Source: Acidobacteriota bacterium
GTDB taxonomy: Bacteria > Acidobacteriota > Terriglobia > Terriglobales > Acidobacteriaceae
Reading direction: 5' to 3'
Assembly: GCA_031296105.1 (NCBI GenBank)
Contig: JARLGJ010000057.1
Coordinates: 1 to 64,000, forward strand
Length of the DNA: 64,000 nt
Shown here: positions 12,004-22,910 of the stretch, in pieces
Position numbering within the stretch: position 1 is the stretch's first letter
Layout: each line of letters begins with the position of its first letter
Notes under the pieces: generated by a model
Databases searched by the model: none
The model's input: only the letters and a program-made list of their open reading frames with translations
Told to the model about the DNA's origin: nothing
Program-made: the position numbers and the translations under genes

Positions 12004-12804
12004 CTAACGGCTCTCCCGCGCGGTGCTTCCATTGCGTGCGCGCGAGGCATAGGGCAGCACCGGCACTAACGTCTCATGGGAGTGACCGCTGTGCTCAAAG
12101 GAAAGCAGCTTGATATCGACGCCGTAGAGCGCGTGCAGATTGTCTTCGCTGAGCACTTCGCTGGCAGCCCCGGCAGCGTACTTTGTGCCGCCCAGCATCA
12201 GCAGCGCATCGTCGGCCACAGCCAGCGCATGATGCGGATGATGCGTGGTAAAGAGCACCGTCAGACCGTCCTGATGCGAGAGGCGTGTGATCCAGTCGAG
12301 GACGACAATCTGATTCTTCAAATCCAGAGCCGAGGTTGGCTCGTCGAGGATCAGTATGTCGGCCTCGGAGACCAGGGCGCGGGCAAAGATCACCAACTGC
12401 CGCTCGCCGCCGGAGAGCTCATGAAACGGATGGCCGGCAAAGTGCGCGATGCCAAAGCGTTCAAGCGCGGCCATTGCCGCCTCTTCATCCTCTGCCGAGG
12501 GTTGCGAGAACAACCCAACCTGGCGGGCGCGGCCCATCAACACCATGTCCATCACCGAGTAGTCGAAAGTGACCTGGAAGAGTTGCGGCACAAACGCCAT
12601 GCGTCCATCGATGGCCACCGTGCCAGCGGCGGGCTTCAACGCGCCCAGAAGAATCTTCAGCAGCGTAGTCTTGCCACAGCCGTTCGGTCCCAACAAGGCA
12701 AAGACTTCACCTCGCTTCACCTGCGTGTTGTAGTCGCGAAACAGCCAGCGATCTGACTTGTAGGCATGGCCTAGATTACTAATTTGAAGAGCAATATTAT
12801 TCAC
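12004..12804 (-). CDS. ABC transporter ATPase for metal-chelate uptake (FecE/FepC type)
   Basis: A 266-residue ATPase. Walker A GPNGCGKT (39-46), Q-loop Gln 74, signature LSGGERQ (130-136), Walker B ILILDEP (150-156) and H-loop His 188 are all present. It powers import of an iron-siderophore, heme or cobalamin-like chelate through the FecCD permeases upstream. The GTG start overlaps the permease stop (GTGAATAA), implying coupling. It is the only intact ATPase for two permeases; a relic of a second copy lies at 13979-14062. Confidence 0.9.
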   Translation of the reverse strand: MNNIALQISNLGHAYKSDRWLFRDYNTQVKRGEVFALLGPNGCGKTTLLKILLGALKPAAGTVAIDGRMAFVPQLFQVTFDYSVMDMVLMGRARQVGLFSQPSAEDEEAAMAALERFGIAHFAGHPFHELSGGERQLVIFARALVSEADILILDEPTSALDLKNQIVVLDWITRLSHQDGLTVLFTTHHPHHALAVADDALLMLGGTKYAAGAASEVLSEDNLHALYGVDIKLLSFEHSGHSHETLVPVLPYASRARNGSTARESR

Positions 12805-13891
12805 GTCTCCAACCCTTTCCCTGCGTCTTCCAAAGTAGGAAACAGACAAGAGGAGTCCCTAACAGAGAGGTCAATGCGCCAACCGGAATTTCCGCGCGCA
12901 CGATTGATCGGGTCAAATCGTCTAGCCCCAAAATGAACAGTGCGCCCAACAATGCCGCGGTAGGCAGCAAACGGCGATGATCGGGTCCGACCAACATCCG
13001 CGCACAATGCGGCACCACCAGGCCAACCCAGCCGACCAATCCGCTGACGGCCACCTGCGCCGCTACCACAAGCGAGGCCATGCCGATGATTATCCAGCGC
13101 AGCACGCCCACGTTGATGCCCAGCGATTTGGCATCAAGATCGCCAAGTGAAAGCAGATTCAAGCGCCAGCGCAGAGTCATCAGCACCGCGCCTACGCCAA
13201 GCGTGGGAATCGCACTGATCAGCACCTTGTTCCAATCGGCGCCGACGAAGGAACCCAGCAGCCAGGCAACGATGGCGAAGATGTTCGACTCCGGCGCGAG
13301 AAACTCAAGCAGGCCCAACAGCGCCACAAAAAAGGCGCCGATAAAAACACCGGCCAGAATTAGAATCATGCTATTGTTGCCGCCATTCGCCAGCCGGGCC
13401 AGAACCATCGTACAGGCCATGGCCAGCAACCCTCCGCAGAAGGCAAAGAACAGAATGCCCACCGGCGGGCAGCCCAGCACCAGGCCAACCACGCCGCCAA
13501 ATGCCGCACCCGAACTGACGCCGATAATATCCGGCCCGACCAGCGGATTGCGAAACAGGCCCTGCAGGGCCGTGCCCGCCATGCCCAGCCCCATACCGGA
13601 CAGCGTGGCAAGCAGCACGCGTGGTATGCGAACAATGGTCACTACCGTCAGTTCCTTCAGATTCCACGGTGGATTGACCGGCGTGAAAAATGGGCACGCC
13701 AAGTGCATCAGGATGCGTGCGCCCTGTGCAAACGACATGGGGTAAGCGCCAATGCAAAGTGAGGCCAGCATGGCGATGAGCACACCCATCCCCAGAAACA
13801 CTGGAACCGCCCATCTGTATTTGCGGGGAAACAGCCCGCCGGGCGCCTGCGCCGTCACCCGCGATTGACTGGCCCGCTCATTTTCTTTCAT
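12797..13891 (-). CDS. FecCD-family ABC permease, copy 1
   Basis: A 364-residue inner-membrane permease with about ten helices and FecCD signatures: RIPRVLLATLSGMGLGMAG, NPLVGPDIIGVSSGAAFG, and GWVGLVVPHCARMLVGPDHR near the ATPase contact loop. It is closely similar throughout to the permease at 14055-15146; both end in GKGWxRE and both overlap an ATPase start in the same way, indicating a tandem duplication. Its ATG lies inside the tail of the binding-protein relic upstream. Confidence 0.9.
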   Translation of the reverse strand: MKENERASQSRVTAQAPGGLFPRKYRWAVPVFLGMGVLIAMLASLCIGAYPMSFAQGARILMHLACPFFTPVNPPWNLKELTVVTIVRIPRVLLATLSGMGLGMAGTALQGLFRNPLVGPDIIGVSSGAAFGGVVGLVLGCPPVGILFFAFCGGLLAMACTMVLARLANGGNNSMILILAGVFIGAFFVALLGLLEFLAPESNIFAIVAWLLGSFVGADWNKVLISAIPTLGVGAVLMTLRWRLNLLSLGDLDAKSLGINVGVLRWIIIGMASLVVAAQVAVSGLVGWVGLVVPHCARMLVGPDHRRLLPTAALLGALFILGLDDLTRSIVRAEIPVGALTSLLGTPLVCFLLWKTQGKGWRRE

Positions 13892-13978
13892 CGTGATTCC
13901 CTCTGTTCATAATTTGCCTGATCGCCTGATGAAATCGCTCAAAGTGGAGCGAGGTCCTGTTCTCTTCAAAATGAAAGC
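13878..13978 (-). pseudogene. Relic of a fourth binding-protein gene (C-terminal ~30 codons)
   Basis: Read on the minus strand, the frame gives FHFEENRTSLHFERFHQAI and then a tail ending at a TGA that overlaps the permease ATG. The core EENRTS..FERF matches the C-terminal signature of the three intact binding proteins of this locus (DENRNSAGYWRF, DENAGSVGYERF, DANRESKGFDRF). Everything before this point is lost. It is joined directly to the ATPase relic, so one deletion probably removed both gene bodies. Confidence 0.6.
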
Positions 13979-14062
13979 GTAGCCGCGGAAAAGCCAATGC
14001 TCGGGCCGTTACGCATGACCCAGATCCTGAATATTTACCGCCACCGTCTTTGCGTTACTCAC
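13979..14062 (-). pseudogene. Relic of a second ABC ATPase gene (N-terminal ~28 codons, in-frame stop)
   Basis: A GTG overlapping the permease stop (GTGAGTAA) opens VSNAKTVAVNIQDLGHA. A TAA comes next, then in the same frame RPEHWLFRGY. This lines up with the intact ATPase start VNNIALQISNLGHAYKSDRWLFRDY: the TAA replaces its Tyr codon. Similarity ends after the Tyr of WLFRGY. The relic keeps only the beginning of the gene and is dead. It shows that each permease once had its own ATPase. Confidence 0.65.
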
Positions 14063-15146
14063 GGCCCCACCCCTTTCCTTGAGACTTCCACAACAGGAAG
14101 CAAACCACCGGCGTTCCCACAAGAGCAGTAAAGACGCCCACCGGCACCTCGGCATGTACCAGCGCTCGCGCAATGTCATCGAGAATCAGGACAAACAAAG
14201 CGCCCAGCAGTGCTCCCGTGGGCAGTAATCGGCGATGATCGGGGCCCACGAACATACGGGCAATGTGCGGCACCACCAGTCCAACCCAGGCCACCACTCC
14301 GCTCACCGCCACCTGCGACGCCACAATCAGCGAGACCAGCGCGATAACCAGCCAGCGCAGGCCCCTCACGTTCACGCCAAGCGTTTTGGCATCCAGATCG
14401 CCCAGCGAGAGTAAGTTAATGCGCCAGCGCAGGCACATCAGTATGGAGGTCGCGATCAAAGTTGGAATCGCGATCATGGCAATCTTCTTCGCGTCCGCAC
14501 CTACAAAGGTTCCCAGCAGCCAGTAGATCATCGTGGGCAGCTTCGAGTCCGGCGAGACAAACTTCACGAATTCGATCAGCGACAGAAAGAATGCGCCGAC
14601 AAACACCCCCGAGAGGATCAGGATCATGCTGTCGGATCCGGCATGTGACAGTTTGGCCAGACCGAAAGTCAGCATCATCGCCAGCATGCCGCCGCAGAAG
14701 GCCGCGCCGATGATGCCCACCGGCGAAAAGTCCCACAACATGGCCATGATGCCGCCGAAGGCCGCGCCGGAACTGACGCCGACAATGTTCGGATCGACGA
14801 GAGGATTGCGCAGCAACCCCTGCAACGCCGTGCCTGAGACGCCCAGTCCAAGACCGGCGATCGTTGCCAGCAGCACACGCGGCAACCGCACCACCTGGAC
14901 GACCGTCTGCTCTTTCACGCTCCACGGTGGATTGGCCGGCAGCGGAAACGGCCACGCCAGGTGAGCCACAATGCGTGCTGCTTGCAGGAACGGCATTGGA
15001 TACGAGCCGATGCAAAGCGAGGCCAGCATGGCCAGCAGCACGCCCACGCTTAGTAACATGGGAAGCGCCCAGCCGTGGCGGCGCGAAAACGCAGCTTCGC
15101 GCACCGTTGGCAATACGCTCTTAACGGCCAAAGTTATTTCTGCCAT
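14055..15146 (-). CDS. FecCD-family ABC permease, copy 2
   Basis: A 363-residue paralogue of the permease at 12797-13891, with the same motifs (RLPRVLLATIAGLGLGVSG, NPLVDPNIVGVSSGAAFG, VPHIARMFVGPDHR) and about ten membrane helices. The ATG at MAEITLA was chosen because AAGGG lies 7 bases upstream; a longer frame upstream lacks a better site. With its own ATPase gene destroyed, it either shares the single remaining ATPase, forms a heterodimer with copy 1, or is inactive. Confidence 0.88.
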   Translation of the reverse strand: MAEITLAVKSVLPTVREAAFSRRHGWALPMLLSVGVLLAMLASLCIGSYPMPFLQAARIVAHLAWPFPLPANPPWSVKEQTVVQVVRLPRVLLATIAGLGLGVSGTALQGLLRNPLVDPNIVGVSSGAAFGGIMAMLWDFSPVGIIGAAFCGGMLAMMLTFGLAKLSHAGSDSMILILSGVFVGAFFLSLIEFVKFVSPDSKLPTMIYWLLGTFVGADAKKIAMIAIPTLIATSILMCLRWRINLLSLGDLDAKTLGVNVRGLRWLVIALVSLIVASQVAVSGVVAWVGLVVPHIARMFVGPDHRRLLPTGALLGALFVLILDDIARALVHAEVPVGVFTALVGTPVVCFLLWKSQGKGWGRE

Positions 15147-15278
15147 TTTGAGACCCTTGATTGGTACATAGTGGATATGCACACGTAAAGCGTTCGCACC
15201 TGGTGGATGCAGCGCTTGCGTCGAGTTGATCGTTGACACGCCGGTTGCCGGCGGCCTTCATCCGGAGCGCGGCCTTCC

Positions 15279-16481
15279 TCATTGCAGGCTCTTTTCGTTA
15301 CGCGCAGCCGCGCCGCTGCGCGTGAATCTCTCGTAACCAACGGAACCTGCGTTTTCGTCGATGCGCAATTGTTTGTCAATCTCTTCATCCGTCAGGCTTG
15401 TATTGAAGTCGTTGCGAAAATGGTCGCGTAAAATCTGGCGAAGCCGCGGCTGCAAAAGTTCCGGATGCAATAACTCGGCAAGCCAGCGCGTTCGCATAGG
15501 AATAAACATCAGCCCGCCCGGGCTCCAATCCTGGACGCCGGCCATCCGGTACACACGCTTCTGCTGAACAGCCTGCAACCCCTGCCAACGCGGATCGTGC
15601 ATAAACTCTTGCGGGCTTTCCCATGGACGCGGCCCAGTGGCAATGCCCGCCAAAACAATTGTTTCAGGATCGATTGCCAGAATTCGCTCCGCGTCATAGC
15701 TCATCGCCTGATGTCCGCTGGCCGCATTGGCCACGCCTGCGCGCGGGTAATAGAGATTGCTCCAGTCGGTGTCGTCGCCAACGACCCCAATCTGACGCCG
15801 GTTCAGTCGCGAAGCCGACATCAGCAGCACCTTCGGCAGAAGGGTCAGGTTCCCGGGATGCAGTTCCTGCTTGAGTTCGTTCACGTCGCGCCAGTATTCC
15901 GCGATATGCGCGTCGCCCAGCGCCGGATTGCCGATCAATGCCGCGTTCACGCGGGCTGTCGAAAGCCCTGCCTTCTCTCCGCCCTTTGCGTGTCCCCAGT
16001 TGGAAAGCGTGGGCAGACCCATGCGGCGCATCAGCGGAATCGGGGTATAGTCTCCGGCCACGCCAAGGTAAACGCCGGGATTGTAGGCCATCATGGCTTC
16101 GATCTCGATATACCCGTCATGCGCGAACCTGAATACCCTGGGATCCCACAGACTTTCCTTGTTGAGCAACTGTGGATAGGCCAGTCTCAGGGCGTTGCCG
16201 GAGAACCATTTCCGTTGATCGGCGGTTCCGGCATAGACCAGCAGATCTGGCGCGTGCGTATCTTCCAGATACCAGTTTGGAAACAGAAATCCATACGTCA
16301 AACAGATGCCGCGAAAAGGCTCCTCGATCACCACGGACTGCCCGTCATCGCCCGTCACCGTGCGGCCATGCGCCGGCGGCGCCTGGTGTGGCAGCGCCCG
16401 CAGCAGCCCCAGCGACATGAGCGCAATCAGCGCAAGCGGCGCAACCCAATACAACTCCAGCCATTTTCTGGAGCGCTTCAT
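15279..16481 (-). CDS. Membrane-anchored metal-chelate binding protein, copy C
   Basis: A 400-residue periplasmic-binding-protein type (Fe-siderophore/cobalamin class, two alpha/beta lobes). An N-terminal hydrophobic segment (LYWVAPLALIALMSLGLLR) has no lipobox or clear cleavage site, so the protein is probably anchored. GRTVTGDDGQSVVIEEPFRG begins the first lobe. DAERILAIDPETIVLAG and DPRWQGLQAVQQKRVYRM belong to the second. The last ~50 residues form a tail (EIDKQLRIDENAGSVGYERF) shared by all copies here. Its start overlaps the previous gene by 4 bases (ATGA). Ligand unknown. Confidence 0.82.
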   Translation of the reverse strand: MKRSRKWLELYWVAPLALIALMSLGLLRALPHQAPPAHGRTVTGDDGQSVVIEEPFRGICLTYGFLFPNWYLEDTHAPDLLVYAGTADQRKWFSGNALRLAYPQLLNKESLWDPRVFRFAHDGYIEIEAMMAYNPGVYLGVAGDYTPIPLMRRMGLPTLSNWGHAKGGEKAGLSTARVNAALIGNPALGDAHIAEYWRDVNELKQELHPGNLTLLPKVLLMSASRLNRRQIGVVGDDTDWSNLYYPRAGVANAASGHQAMSYDAERILAIDPETIVLAGIATGPRPWESPQEFMHDPRWQGLQAVQQKRVYRMAGVQDWSPGGLMFIPMRTRWLAELLHPELLQPRLRQILRDHFRNDFNTSLTDEEIDKQLRIDENAGSVGYERFTRSGAAARNEKSLQ

Positions 16482-17680
16482 TCCCCGCTCCTCTCTTGCA
16501 TGGCGGCCTTATACTCATCGGTGAATCGCCAATAGCCTGCCGAATTTCTGTTTTCATCCAACTTGAGAAATTTGTCGATCTGCTCTTCGCTGAGTTTGTA
16601 CCCATACTCCGCGAGTAAACGGTCATACAGCATCTGACGAACCCTTGGCTGCAGCCGGTCGGGATGCGTGATCTCGTCGATCCAGCGCACGACAACCGGG
16701 GTTACAACCAGCGCGGAGCCCCAGTTGGAGAAGCCGGGCAGACGATAGACACGCTTTTGCCGCACGGCCTTCAGCCCCGCCCAGCGCGGATCTTGCATCA
16801 CTTGTTCAGGACTGTCTCCGCCCTGCAGCAGAATGATGTCCGGATCCATGGCGAGAATCCGTTCGACATCATCGCGTCCGCCCTTCCAGCCCACGGTCGC
16901 GTCCGTCATGCCCTGGGATGGAAAAGCAATTTGGTCATGATAGATAGCGGGACGCGTCATGCCGCCTCTGTATCCTCTCGTGGCGTCAACTCTGAAGCTT
17001 GCCATCAGCGCCGTTCGCGGGCGGACGCCAAGGGTCGATGGCCGCATTTCGTCCCAATACTCGCGCTCTAATTCCGCCCGCGCCTCGTAGTAGCGGGCGA
17101 TGATCACTTCGCCCCGCTCGGGCGTCCCGATCAGACGATTCTCCACACGCACGGCATCGATGCACACATCTGCAAAGATCTTTTTGGGCTCCCAGTAGGA
17201 AAGCACGGGCAGCCCCACACTGCGCAGCAGCGGAAGGGATGTAAAGCGGCTGCCGGTCGTCAAATAAGCGCCTGGCGCGTAGGCCAATGCGCTCTCGATA
17301 TCAACATCTGATCCATGTGAGCGCTTGAAGGCGGTGCTGCCCCAAAGACCTTGTTTTCGCTCCACCTCGGGGTAGATCCAGTACATCAGTCCCTTGGTAA
17401 ACTCCTTGCGGTTCGCGGCGGTGCCTGCATACATCAGTGACTCCGGTGCGCGTGTGCTATCCAGGTACCAGCCGGTCAGATAAAAATACCCGCCCAGCAG
17501 CGCCGTGCCACGATACGGCCACTCGATCTCGACTGGCGCGCCGGCGGCATCCACAACGGTGCGGCCATGCGCTGGCGGATTCAAGTGCGGCATTGGCCGC
17601 AACAAGCCCAGCGCCAGCAGCGCAATGCCCACGATGGGAGCAAGCCAGTAGAGTTCGCGCGTGCGATCCAGGCGGGTCAC
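16478..17680 (-). CDS. Membrane-anchored metal-chelate binding protein, copy B
   Basis: A 400-residue paralogue of its two neighbours with the same plan: N-terminal anchor LYWLAPIVGIALLALGLLR, opening GRTVVDAAGAPVEIEWPYRG, second-lobe DVERILAMDPDIILLQGG and DPRWAGLKAVRQKRVYRL, and tail EQIDKFLKLDENRNSAGYWRF. It overlaps both neighbours by 4 bases, so the three are translated as a unit. Sequence divergence among the copies is substantial, so they may bind different ligands or work as a set; this is inference. Confidence 0.82.
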   Translation of the reverse strand: MTRLDRTRELYWLAPIVGIALLALGLLRPMPHLNPPAHGRTVVDAAGAPVEIEWPYRGTALLGGYFYLTGWYLDSTRAPESLMYAGTAANRKEFTKGLMYWIYPEVERKQGLWGSTAFKRSHGSDVDIESALAYAPGAYLTTGSRFTSLPLLRSVGLPVLSYWEPKKIFADVCIDAVRVENRLIGTPERGEVIIARYYEARAELEREYWDEMRPSTLGVRPRTALMASFRVDATRGYRGGMTRPAIYHDQIAFPSQGMTDATVGWKGGRDDVERILAMDPDIILLQGGDSPEQVMQDPRWAGLKAVRQKRVYRLPGFSNWGSALVVTPVVVRWIDEITHPDRLQPRVRQMLYDRLLAEYGYKLSEEQIDKFLKLDENRNSAGYWRFTDEYKAAMQERSGE

Positions 17681-18855
17681 TTCGTTGTCCCCTCCGGCGC
17701 AGCCGGTTGGCCTTCGCGCATGAAGCGGTCAAAGCCCTTTGACTCCCGGTTTGCGTCGATGTGCAGCAAGTAATCAATCTGGTCTTCGCGCAGAGGATAA
17801 TCAAACTCGCTCTGAAAGCGCTCGCGCAGTAGCTGGCGAACCCTGGGCAGCAGCCGCTCCGGATGGGCAATCTCCGCTATCTGACGCACAAAGACCGGCG
17901 TGGTAATGGGGCCGCGCGACATGGTGCCCAAGGCGGAGTAAACGCGCTTTTCCGCAACCGCCCTCAGTCCCTGCCAGCGCGGATCGTGCAGAAACTCCTC
18001 GGGCGTCTCAACGGTGACGAAGATTATCCCGGGGTCAACCGCCAAAATGCGCTCCGCATCCCATCCAGCGGAGTGGTCATGCCCCACGAGAGCATTCACC
18101 ACGCCGGCACGGGGAAAGTAGGCCTCATCGTAAATACTACGTGTGCCGATGGGATGCAGAAATCGTCCGTCGGCTCTCTTGCTGCTGAGCACCAGAACAC
18201 GGGGCCGGTGGGCAAGTGTTGCCGGCTGCAATTCCTTGTCCAGGTCCGCAAAGCTCTTTCGATAGCGTGCGATGAGTGACTCGCCGCGCTCGGGATACCC
18301 CGCCACCGCCGCAGAGGTCCGCGCCGCCATGAAATAGATTTCGTCGCCCTTGTGCGGCTTCCACATATACACCACCGGAAGCCCGAAGCGGCGCAGCATG
18401 GGCAACGGCGTGCCTGCCCCGCAGCAGCCCACATACGCACCGGCGTTCTGCGCCAGTTGCGACTCAATTTCAATATTTTCGCCATGCGCCTGGCGAAACG
18501 ACGGAACGCTCCAAATCCAATTGTTCTTCAAGACGTCTGGATAAACCCAGCTCACAACGCTTTTGGAAAACCTTGTTCGCTCCTGTGAATCGCCGCCCTC
18601 CAGCAGTGTCTCTGGAGCAAGCGTATTCTCCAGGTACCAGTCGGCTCCTCCGTCTGGCAGCACGGTTCCACGAAAAGGAATGGCAAGCCGGACCGGAGTG
18701 CCGAAGGCATCCGGCACGGTGCGGCTGGGACCGGCAAGGGGCGGAATAAGCGGCAAGGGACGAAGCAAGCCAGCCGCCATGAGCACGATGCATAGCAAGG
18801 GGACGAACCAGAGCGCTTCACGCGCCGGCGCTTTGCTAAACACAGTGCGCACCAT
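17677..18855 (-). CDS. Membrane-anchored metal-chelate binding protein, copy A
   Basis: A 392-residue first member of the tandem trio, directly downstream of the TonB receptor gene. Anchor segment ALWFVPLLCIVLMAAGLLRP, opening SRTVPDAFGTPVRLAIPFRG, second-lobe DAERILAVDPGIIFVTVET and DPRWQGLRAVAEKRVYSAL, tail EDQIDYLLHIDANRESKGFDRF. The ATG at MVRTVFS fits the anchor position of the other copies; a weak GGGA precedes it. CGYP-like changes and an extra CC pair (near residue 155) distinguish it from copies B and C. Confidence 0.82.
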   Translation of the reverse strand: MVRTVFSKAPAREALWFVPLLCIVLMAAGLLRPLPLIPPLAGPSRTVPDAFGTPVRLAIPFRGTVLPDGGADWYLENTLAPETLLEGGDSQERTRFSKSVVSWVYPDVLKNNWIWSVPSFRQAHGENIEIESQLAQNAGAYVGCCGAGTPLPMLRRFGLPVVYMWKPHKGDEIYFMAARTSAAVAGYPERGESLIARYRKSFADLDKELQPATLAHRPRVLVLSSKRADGRFLHPIGTRSIYDEAYFPRAGVVNALVGHDHSAGWDAERILAVDPGIIFVTVETPEEFLHDPRWQGLRAVAEKRVYSALGTMSRGPITTPVFVRQIAEIAHPERLLPRVRQLLRERFQSEFDYPLREDQIDYLLHIDANRESKGFDRFMREGQPAAPEGTTK

Positions 18856-18978
18856 GGCCGATTCCCACGCTTTCTGAGGAAGCAAATGTGATCGCCGCGG
18901 AGGAGACCAATGTGTAGCAATCTCCTCCGCGGCTATGTTGCGCGCGGTCTCTGATGAGACCGCGGTTGGTTGGCGCAC

Positions 18979-21900
18979 TTAGAACATCAATTTCACGGCG
19001 ACTTGCATGGAACGCGGACCGCCCTGCTGATATATTGGCGAGCCCATTGCTGGAACGATGGTGTTCGCCGTCTCCGTCGCCAAGCCCCAGGTCGCAATCG
19101 TGCTCGCCGTGGATGCTGGTCTCCAGATACAGGCCGACTGGTTCTGAGCGGAGCACTCGTTGTTGAAGTTCGGGTGATTGATGAAGTTGAATGCCTCGAA
19201 ACGGAATTGGAGACGCATTCCATTGTCCAGCGCGAACTGCTTGTGCACTGCAATGTCCGGCTGAATCAATCCAAAGCCGCGTATGGAATTCCTGCCCGAG
19301 TTGCCATTGACAGCCGCGGTGCCGGCTGCATTCATGGCTTCGCTGAATGCGTTGTAGTTCAACTGCTTTCCGCCGGGGCATCCGGAACCGCATTGGCCGC
19401 CCTTCAGGAACAGAGGCACTCCCGCGACACGGTTTGGAAATAAGCTATAGGTGTTTCCGACGGAATCGACAGGAGCCGGATACACACCCAGGTAGACGTT
19501 CAGCGGTAGTGCCGAACGTGCGGAAATGCGCGCGTCGAAGGCCCAGTTATCAAGCAGGTTGGACAGAACTGCGTTCGAGTGCTTGCCGGGAATCATATAA
19601 GTCCCGGCGCCTTCGAAGTGGCTTCGAACATCCAGATCCGAGTTTGCATAGGGCAGCTTGGTCTGATATTCCCCCTGTCCGGCGTAGATCTGATTGACGC
19701 TTGCGTTGTCGACGGCGTGCGACCACGTATAGTTCACAAGTACCGACAGACCTTGCGACAAGCGCCGTTTATACGTGGTTTGCAGACCGTTATACATGGC
19801 CCGCCCGCCATTTTTATAAATCTGGATCCCCGTTGACGCTCCGAAGTTGGTATTGCCGTAGTACTTATTCGGAGTCGTTACAAAGGGAATGATGTTGCGC
19901 TGGTTGACTGCGCCTACATAGCTGACGGTCAACGATTGCTTCGCGCCGTACGACTGCTCGACCGACACATTCCACTGCAGCGATAGCGGATCCTTCAAGT
20001 GCGGATCGAAGGTCGTCAGCGTGGAGGTGATTTGCTTGGAAGAGCTGGCCGGATACGGATTCACTACATTGGGAATGCAGTCGGTGGTGTTGGGAGACAC
20101 ACAGAAGTTCACCTCCTGCAACGTCAGCGGGAATTGCTTTCCCGTGTAGTACAGCATATTGGTCAGACCGATATTGGTCGTCGCCGTCATCATGTTTGGA
20201 TTGTCGTTATACAGTCCGCCGCCCGCGCGTAGAACCGTCGAGTTCGCGCCCTCGTGAAGTATGTAAGCCGCGCCCAGGCGGGGTGCCAGTGCGGTCCACT
20301 GCGTGTGCCATAACGGCGTGCCTCGCGGCGCCAGCGTCATGGTCGCCAGGTTGCCGATCTGGTCGATGGTCCACGGATAGTAGTTGGCCATGTGCATCGC
20401 CGGATTGATATCCCAGCGCAGTCCCAGGGACAGGCTCAGGCGTGGCGTCACCTTCCACTCGTCTTGCACGTACAGGCTGGTATTGGTGAATTGTGGTTTC
20501 ACATAGCTGTAATTGTTGCGGCGCGCATAGAAAGTGCCAAGCGTGCTGCTCATGAAGTGCGCTTCCGTGTCGAAGCCGCCATACATGCCCAATTGTGTCT
20601 GGCTCTGCCAGGTGGACGAATGCCGCCAGTCAACGCCGAACTTGAGGATGTGCTTGTGAACGGTCCAGATGGTGCTGTCCACGATGTTTACCTGGCGCTG
20701 AGCGTTCGAGGAGGGGTAGTTGTAGTTGCCCCAACTACCTGGCGACCACGAGGTATACACGCTGACACTGGTATTGCCCGGCACATACCCCGGAATCACC
20801 GAGGCGTAATCGGTCGGCACCGCGCCGTCATACGTCGTGCCCTGGTAGCGCTGCTGCCAGTTAACCTGCCAGCCGGCCACGCGCAGATCGTTGGTGATTG
20901 AATGCGCGATGCTGGTGGTCACCCCCAGCAGCGCCATGTTGGTGCGGTTTACCGGCGTGATCCACTCGGTCGGAGGCGTGGTGCAGTTGGAGCAGTATCC
21001 CTCGGCCGAAGATGGCGCGCGCATGTAACGCGCAAAGAGCTTCACCCGGTTGTTCACCGTGTGATCGATGCGCAGATTGGCGGTATTTAGGTTGCTCCAT
21101 GTCGGGTAAGCGACAACTTCGGTCGCTACGCCGTTGTGCCCAAGTGCCATATCCTGCGCGATGGTGATCGTCGGATCGGCATCTGTACACCCGTAGGTGG
21201 TATCGGCAATGGTCGTGGCAGCCGTCACCTTCTTGCAGTTCGGAACGGGCATGTCGAGGATAAAGGGCATCAGATTTTTCGGCCCGAAGGTGCGCATCGA
21301 CATGTCGGGAATGTAGATTGTCTGGGCTGGCTGCGGCTGTTCCAGCTTGATCGACTCATAGTTAAAAAAGAAAAATGTCTTGTCCTTGCCGTTGTACAAA
21401 CCGGGAATGATGACCGGGCCGCTGAATGTGCCGCCGAAATCGTTCTGGTGCGAATTCTGCCGCGCAATCTTGTAGTAGTTGTTGAACCAGTTGTTCGAGT
21501 CCATCGCCGCATTGCGCAGATAATCGTAAGCGGATCCGTGCCAGGCATTGGTGCCCGATCGCGAAACAATCGAAAACTGGCCGCCGGACTGGCGTCCATA
21601 CTCTGCCGTGGCCGATGAAGTGATGGCTTGAAACTCCTGCATCGCGTCAATCGACAACATGGACTGCGTTGTGCCTAGCGCAGAGAAGTTGCCCCCGCTG
21701 GCCGCATAGCCGCCATTCGATGCGCTGGCGCCGGTGGAGGAGCCGCCCATCAGGGAACTGGCGCCGACGTTCGCCGATACTCCGTCGATGGTAAAACTAT
21801 TCGAGTCGGTGCGCTGGCCATTGACTGAGAACTGAATGCCTCCCGGCATCAGGGTTACGCCCGGGGCCAAGCTCAACAGCGACTGGAAGGTGCGCCCATT

Positions 21901-22338
21901 GAGCGGCAGATCCTCGACAAACTGTTGATCCACAATCGTGCTCACGGTAGGATTGCTGACATTCACTGCCTGCAAATCGCCGGTCACGGTCACTTCCTGC
22001 TTCTCACTGCCAATGATCAGTTGAACATTGAAAACCAGCCCTTGACCGACATTGAGCATGAGCGGCTCGCTGACCGCGGTAGAGAAGCCCGGCGCTTCTA
22101 CCGTAACCTTGTAGTTTCCTGGCTTTAAATACGGAACGGCATAAAACCCTTCCTGGTTGGTTCTGGAGTCACTCGCGACGTCCGTGGCTTGGTTGACAAC
22201 GCGAACGCTCGCGCCTGCGACCATGGTTTTATGGGGATCGGTAACTCTCCCCGAGATTTGCGCGGTTTGGGCGTAGGCTGTAACTGCGATCATAAGCAAT
22301 GCGAATACGCCAAGTATTCGCAAGCTGGGTCGTTTCAT
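18979..22338 (-). CDS. TonB-dependent outer-membrane receptor, Oar-like, with carboxypeptidase-regulatory-like domain
   Basis: A 1119-residue outer-membrane transporter. Signal peptide ends near TAYAQ. Residues ~25-110 form the carboxypeptidase-regulatory-like domain (ISGRVTDPHKTMVAGASV... YAVPYLKPGNYKVTVEAPGF). The plug follows (VEDLPLNGRTFQSLLSLAPGV, SVNGQRTDSNSFTIDGV). The beta-barrel closes with a terminal Phe (QVAVKLMF). The ATG at MKRPSLR has AAGGA 9 bases upstream. It heads the minus-strand locus with the binding proteins, permeases and ATPase, so it probably brings the same chelate across the outer membrane. Barrels of this Oar class are numerous in Acidobacteria and often have unknown substrates. 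Confidence 0.9.
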   Translation of the reverse strand: MKRPSLRILGVFALLMIAVTAYAQTAQISGRVTDPHKTMVAGASVRVVNQATDVASDSRTNQEGFYAVPYLKPGNYKVTVEAPGFSTAVSEPLMLNVGQGLVFNVQLIIGSEKQEVTVTGDLQAVNVSNPTVSTIVDQQFVEDLPLNGRTFQSLLSLAPGVTLMPGGIQFSVNGQRTDSNSFTIDGVSANVGASSLMGGSSTGASASNGGYAASGGNFSALGTTQSMLSIDAMQEFQAITSSATAEYGRQSGGQFSIVSRSGTNAWHGSAYDYLRNAAMDSNNWFNNYYKIARQNSHQNDFGGTFSGPVIIPGLYNGKDKTFFFFNYESIKLEQPQPAQTIYIPDMSMRTFGPKNLMPFILDMPVPNCKKVTAATTIADTTYGCTDADPTITIAQDMALGHNGVATEVVAYPTWSNLNTANLRIDHTVNNRVKLFARYMRAPSSAEGYCSNCTTPPTEWITPVNRTNMALLGVTTSIAHSITNDLRVAGWQVNWQQRYQGTTYDGAVPTDYASVIPGYVPGNTSVSVYTSWSPGSWGNYNYPSSNAQRQVNIVDSTIWTVHKHILKFGVDWRHSSTWQSQTQLGMYGGFDTEAHFMSSTLGTFYARRNNYSYVKPQFTNTSLYVQDEWKVTPRLSLSLGLRWDINPAMHMANYYPWTIDQIGNLATMTLAPRGTPLWHTQWTALAPRLGAAYILHEGANSTVLRAGGGLYNDNPNMMTATTNIGLTNMLYYTGKQFPLTLQEVNFCVSPNTTDCIPNVVNPYPASSSKQITSTLTTFDPHLKDPLSLQWNVSVEQSYGAKQSLTVSYVGAVNQRNIIPFVTTPNKYYGNTNFGASTGIQIYKNGGRAMYNGLQTTYKRRLSQGLSVLVNYTWSHAVDNASVNQIYAGQGEYQTKLPYANSDLDVRSHFEGAGTYMIPGKHSNAVLSNLLDNWAFDARISARSALPLNVYLGVYPAPVDSVGNTYSLFPNRVAGVPLFLKGGQCGSGCPGGKQLNYNAFSEAMNAAGTAAVNGNSGRNSIRGFGLIQPDIAVHKQFALDNGMRLQFRFEAFNFINHPNFNNECSAQNQSACIWRPASTASTIATWGLATETANTIVPAMGSPIYQQGGPRSMQVAVKLMF

Positions 22339-22910
22339 ATACAAGCCATCCTTACTGGAATTTGTGTGCACCTGGGTATGGAATTGCCATATTTACGTTT
22401 GCGACAAGGAAACATGTCTCCCCCTTGGGCGAGACAAAATCGTGTACTGCAAAGAACGATTCACCGGGATATCCGGCGCTTTTCGAGCTTTATAAAGTCC
22501 AGGCGCGCGGCGCACAGTTTTCACCGGAAGCATGAATGTCATCCGTACCAGTCACTGCAATGTTTACGAGACGATGAACAACCATACTGCCCCCATTACT
22601 GAGGTGTCAACGTAAAAAGTCATCCTGAGTAATAAAGTCACACAAACGCGACTCCGGCCGCCGCCGGATAACCCGCGCGCCGTTGCGCGCCAATTCTCGG
22701 GGTTTTCGTCGCAGACTCTGGCCCAACTAACCCTGTGAACTCTCATCAAGTCGGAATCTGTCAGGGCAGGCTTCAGCCGTGCCGTAGGGGAGGCGGGTGC
22801 CCAGAGCCTGCCCAGAGTTGAGCGAAGGGTTCGCGAGCGCAGCGAGTTAACCTGGGAAACTCTCACACCATCTCAGGCGAAGGTTCTGACCCTCGTCGCT
22901 ACTCTTCCCC
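22339..22910. promoter_or_regulatory. Upstream region of the TonB-receptor operon, with repeat fragments
   Basis: About 570 bp without a gene. The half next to the receptor should hold its promoter. A perfect 10-bp palindrome CTTTATAAAG lies at 22488-22497, and a GTCTC/GAGAC hairpin lies nearer the start. I see no Fur box or cobalamin riboswitch core. The distal half (about 22757-22860) contains fragments of the dispersed palindromic repeats, including an inverted copy of the sequence at 58816-58876. Confidence 0.45.

Follow-up and report, generated by a model that had tools for sequence, protein, structure and literature searches.

In transporters of the FecCD/BtuCD class, it is normal for one ATPase to serve two permeases, and in the Fec and Fep systems the permease is a heterodimer. 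The nearest solved relative of the importer described here is HI1471/HI1470 of H. influenzae (MolB/MolC, PDB 2nq2), a type II importer of the FecCD/BtuCD class, which was the best PDB match for both permease (E 1.7e-71) and ATPase (E 4.9e-60); a binding protein of our operon matched HI_1472 weakly. The operon differs from MolBC in combining a pair of permeases with a single ATPase, three binding proteins whose N-termini are hydrophobic, and a TonB-type receptor. Sharing of an ATPase is experimentally known from S. aureus, where FhuC alone serves several FecCD-type permeases (Fhu, Hts, Sir, and Isd; PMC10147376). The arrangement proposed here is similar, except that the S. aureus permeases lie in separate operons, whereas our two permeases would share an ATPase within one operon.

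Between these two permease genes lies a 185-base spacer. We argue, with a probability of roughly 0.88, that it is a pseudogene relic of a duplicated array, in which a deletion of ~1.8 kb fused two genes, and that the remaining ATPase most likely energizes both permeases. Like other deletion-fused gene relics in bacterial intergenic regions, it consists of a short head and tail of lost genes carrying nonsense and frameshift lesions, and it is unusual among them only in the clean survival of both outer gene boundaries.

Results

The window, i.e., the whole 64,000-nucleotide stretch of Acidobacteriota DNA that was analyzed, carries the cluster on its minus strand, in the order receptor, three binding proteins, permease 1, spacer, permease 2, and ATPase:

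18979..22371, minus strand: TonB-dependent-receptor-like outer membrane protein at the head of the cluster (PF25183, E 1.8e-134; PF13620)
17677..18978, minus strand: binding protein 1, intact (PF01497, E 1e-7)
16478..17680, minus strand: binding protein 2, intact (PF01497, E 3.9e-10)
15279..16481, minus strand: binding protein 3, intact (PF01497, E 6.2e-11)
14055..15143, minus strand: permease 1, FecCD family, intact, its stop overlapping the GTG of the relic (PF01032, E 7.6e-82)
12797..13891, minus strand: permease 2, FecCD family, intact (PF01032, E 4.5e-79)
12004..12804, minus strand: the one intact ATPase of the operon (Pfam ABC_tran; Walker A, signature, Walker B, and H-loop present)

Pfam scores were clear for all intact genes of the cluster, and the joint presence of a FecCD permease, an ABC ATPase, and a Peripla_BP_2 binding protein identifies a FecCD/BtuCD-class importer. 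Permease 1, permease 2, and the ATPase are all intact; in comparison with a sister operon on another contig of the same genome (C54), their dN is 0.14–0.26 against near-saturated dS, and by this sequence measure, the permease and ATPase genes are under purifying selection. Within the spacer and at its edges, we distinguished the following:

13979..14062, minus strand: head relic of an ATPase gene, 28 codons (GTG to FRGY), from alignment to the N-termini of four intact ATPases
14009..14011, minus strand: in-frame TAA inside the ATPase head, at the position of an invariant Tyr (sequence and alignment)
13970..13979, minus strand: approximate deletion junction; the head homology is last clear at FRGY, and the tail begins with FHFEEN in another frame
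13888..13976, minus strand: tail relic of a binding-protein gene, ~29 codons, one base missing after ERF (13932), from frameshift-aware alignment
13899..13904, minus strand: AGAGGG inside the relic, probable ribosome-binding site of permease 2 (read from sequence, with a putative function)

Reading the minus strand from 14062, the head runs GTG AGT AAC and onward as VSNAKTVAVNIQDLGHA, a stop codon, and RPEHWLFRGY; retranslation reproduced exactly the spacer translations given in the preliminary description. Its GTG lies in a GTGA overlap with the stop of permease 1 (GTGAGTAA), as do the other ATPase starts in these operons. The resemblance to the start of the intact ATPase that had been claimed was borne out: the two align without gaps at a score of 73 (BLOSUM62), while shuffled spacers reached no more than 54 (500 base shuffles) or 50 (400 dinucleotide shuffles). 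Against the three other intact ATPases, the head scored 63–64, one of these alignments containing a three-residue gap. Seven residues of this stretch are invariant among the four intact ATPases; the head keeps six of them, and in place of the seventh, a Tyr, the alignment shows the stop codon. The alignment can be extended by ILKR, which overlaps the tail and may not be homologous.

The 3′ part of the spacer had been matched to the C-termini of the binding proteins, and this claim holds once a frame change is admitted. The 13-residue motif FEENRTSLHFERF is weak by itself, scoring 30–32 against single paralogues. After it, however, one base is lost and the shifted frame reads SGDQANYEQRESR, giving a frame-corrected tail of FHFEENRTSLHFERF-(x)-SGDQANYEQRESR. 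In a frameshift-aware, end-anchored comparison, the best match was binding protein 2 of C54 (ending ENAGSVGAERFTRGYQATSEQGSSK), with an alignment that reaches its last residue at a score of 49, compared with a null mean of 9 and a maximum of 32 (0 of 1,500 dinucleotide shuffles reached 49). Summed over six binding proteins, the tail scored 223 against a null mean of 124 and a maximum of 186 (1,500 shuffles). A less focused test over the whole spacer gave a best single score reached by 1 of 400 shuffles and a sum reached by none of 400. Moreover, 14 residues follow RF in the frame-corrected relic, the same number as in each of the five intact binding proteins that the two sister operons encode, and the tail stop, TGA at 13890-13888, sits within an ATGA whose ATG starts permease 2. 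With both homologies exceeding their shuffles and an intact ATPase occupying the corresponding slot in C54, the proposal that ATPase head and binding-protein tail are joined in the spacer stands.

The two homologies abut within about 10 bases (~13979-13970), the exact junction base being one that only an intact relative could set. The reading frame of the spacer is disrupted three times, by the TAA at 14011-14009, by the frame change at the junction, and by the one-base loss after 13932. At 57 codons, the relic is short, and a ribosome re-entering at its GTG would stop after 17 codons; as read from its sequence, it has no usable reading frame and yields no useful product. Since AGAGGG stands seven bases before the ATG of permease 2, that gene can probably start by itself.

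We then considered whether the array might have decayed through several separate deletions and point lesions instead of one deletion. Successive deletions would leave the same trace as a single one, and the relic carries at least two further lesions (the TAA and the one-base loss), which indicates that it has been drifting. Both outer edges are preserved, however, and homologies abutting this closely are most simply produced by one deletion, so that we regard stepwise decay as unlikely, though deserving of serious thought. Very improbable, in our view, is that the relic stems from one ATPase gene alone, shortened internally by a deletion and still ending in its own C-terminus, a fourth binding protein never having existed. 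The intact ATPase and the relic do both end in RESR, with an end-anchored score of 25 reached by 5 of 1,500 shuffles, but the tail DNA as a whole scored 80 against ATPase C-termini, where the null mean is 79, and 223 against binding proteins, where it is 124; the tail is therefore not the ATPase's own end, and we rejected this source for the 3′ part. The relic stop also sits on ATGA, as at the boundary between binding protein 2 and permease 1 in C54. We give little credence to a false deletion created by collapsing or misjoining paralogous operons: the assembly is a draft in 74 contigs and C54 does carry a paralogous operon, but the paralogue DNA is only 64–75% identical, no long words are shared at the junction, and the relic lies inside a 180-kb contig with independent nonsense and frameshift lesions. 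Equally hard to credit is a functional element (a small peptide or an RNA regulator) that merely resembles gene ends, for which we found no support beyond the spacer separating two co-oriented genes, whereas the spacer had no Rfam family match and no promoter-like or terminator-like site, and both its ends are accounted for by homology.

The fusion of an ATPase head to a binding-protein tail gains further support from C54. Its operon comprises a TonB-type receptor, two binding proteins, permease 1, an ATPase, and permease 2, with the intact ATPase in exactly the slot that the relic occupies between the permeases. Across the permease 1/ATPase boundary, C54 and the window share the DNA GAAAGGGGTGGGGCCGTGAGTAAC, and the permease 1/relic junction (GGAAAGGGGTGGGGCCGTGAGTAAC, compared from GAAAGGGG on) recurs identically before the intact C54 ATPase. 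By position, permease identity was 67.4% for the two copies of permease 1 and 66.1% for those of permease 2, compared with 60.1–63.4% for other pairs, and the permease 2 copies group together in the tree (support 96/93). Since the permeases pair by position, the two-permease layout predates the split of the two operons. The tree gave no resolution on whether the window ATPase is the positional counterpart of the C54 ATPase. Recent gene conversion between these ATPases was not supported, since saturation at synonymous sites is about as high as it is in the permeases. C54 lacks both a binding protein between ATPase and permease 2 and a second ATPase, and the full ancestral array therefore rests on the relic itself. 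In the C54 operon (L009 6247-9219), no ATPase follows permease 2, and a hydrolase-TPR open frame begins right at the permease stop (GTGAATAAG).

An unbroken array (binding proteins-permease-ATPase-binding protein-permease-ATPase), whose occurrence in related genomes the preliminary description had proposed as a check, was found in none of ~1,950 genome scans with overlapping draws. These covered 4 genomes of the genus; draws of 300 and 398 from the family, 397 from the order, 399 from the class, and 396 from the phylum; and 60 relatives of G377, a genome from another family of the phylum. Also covered were a contig-database match list, giving matches without neighborhoods, and the ten best plasmid matches, three with their neighborhood inspected. 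The C54 paralogue keeps the ATPase slot intact, the complete array was not found in the sampled genomes, and the ancestral array accordingly stands as a reconstruction. Outside the genome itself, the family, order, and class draws yielded nothing at E 1e-70 to 1e-80 or better, and in the phylum draw only G377 gave such a match. The remaining three genomes of the genus contained at most a distant permease (38%). Single binding protein-permease-ATPase units occur on contig C60 of the same genome and in G377, and the closest relatives with a name are likewise single-unit systems, carried by plasmids of methanotrophs and rhizobia (51–54% and 45–49%). As a separate observation, the genome holds two sister copies of the importer (C16 and C54), and none as close was seen among the sampled genomes of the family, which suggests a gain through horizontal transfer or else widespread loss.

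Discussion

We propose that a binding protein-permease-ATPase unit was duplicated in tandem, giving an ancestral operon with the order binding proteins, permease 1, ATPase a, a fourth binding protein, permease 2, and ATPase b. A deletion of roughly 1.8 kb would then have taken the greater part of both ATPase a and the fourth binding protein, leaving the first 28 codons of the former joined to the last ~29 codons of the latter. Joined in this way, the two fragments still keep, at their outer edges, the translational start that belonged to ATPase a and the stop/start overlap of the vanished binding-protein gene. The relic would in addition have acquired its nonsense codon and one-base loss, with permease 2 presumably relying for its start on the AGAGGG in front of it. 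The deletion probably removed about 1.8 kb, and we infer a single event, its size, and the order of the lesions from DNA in which both homologies, the lesions, the intact paralogue, and the intact neighbors are seen directly.

On the simplest history, the unit was duplicated in tandem and the two sister operons then lost different parts. It is possible, although we hold the idea only tentatively, that the ATPases they lost stood at different places in one two-unit array, with C54 keeping the one between the permeases and the operon in the window the one after permease 2. If so, this would point to selection, repeated and independent of position, for a pair of permeases on a single ATPase, amounting to the evolution of a permease heterodimer from two homodimeric importers. 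The preliminary description spoke of system reduction in progress. Trimming of the array is supported, but since C54 has also settled on two permeases and one ATPase, a layout normal in this class, "in progress" is better softened to a repeated end state. The relic documents a duplicated importer unit cut back to this common layout with the lost genes still recognizable, and it is a clear, well-preserved, but fairly ordinary example of a well-known process, the trimming of a duplicated bacterial operon.

Since a pair of permeases on a single ATPase is a familiar arrangement, a shared ATPase or a permease heterodimer is likely and unremarkable. The remaining ATPase most likely energizes both permeases, either as a homodimer bearing a permease 1–permease 2 heterodimer, as in the Fec/Fep layout, or by supplying two permease homodimers. 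The cytoplasmic loop LRWRxNLLSLGDLDAKxLGxNV, which we take, by analogy with BtuC, to be the ATPase docking site, is nearly the same in both permeases and would fit a single ATPase docking on both. With the relic, one organism offers a way to test how homodimeric importers gave rise to a heterodimer or came to share an ATPase.

Kinship with MolBC, together with the gene neighbors of relatives, hints at molybdate, tungstate, or a related metallophore as the substrate. The C60 paralogue (L010) adjoins a moaA-like radical SAM gene; among the plasmid relatives (L059 and L061), that of Methylosinus lies beside modBC and a "nitrogenase component 1" gene, and that of Rhizobium beside a molybdate-binding protein gene.

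Elsewhere in the cluster, no clear gene relic was seen in the region downstream of the ATPase or in the interval 15144-15278 (raw scores of 22–42 against full-length proteins). This interval is a 135-base gap separating binding protein 3 from permease 1; at the corresponding place in the sister operon, the genes overlap by 4 bases. The three tandem binding proteins (15279-18978) are only 42–45% identical to one another, and each has a hydrophobic N-terminal stretch resembling a membrane anchor or an uncleaved signal.
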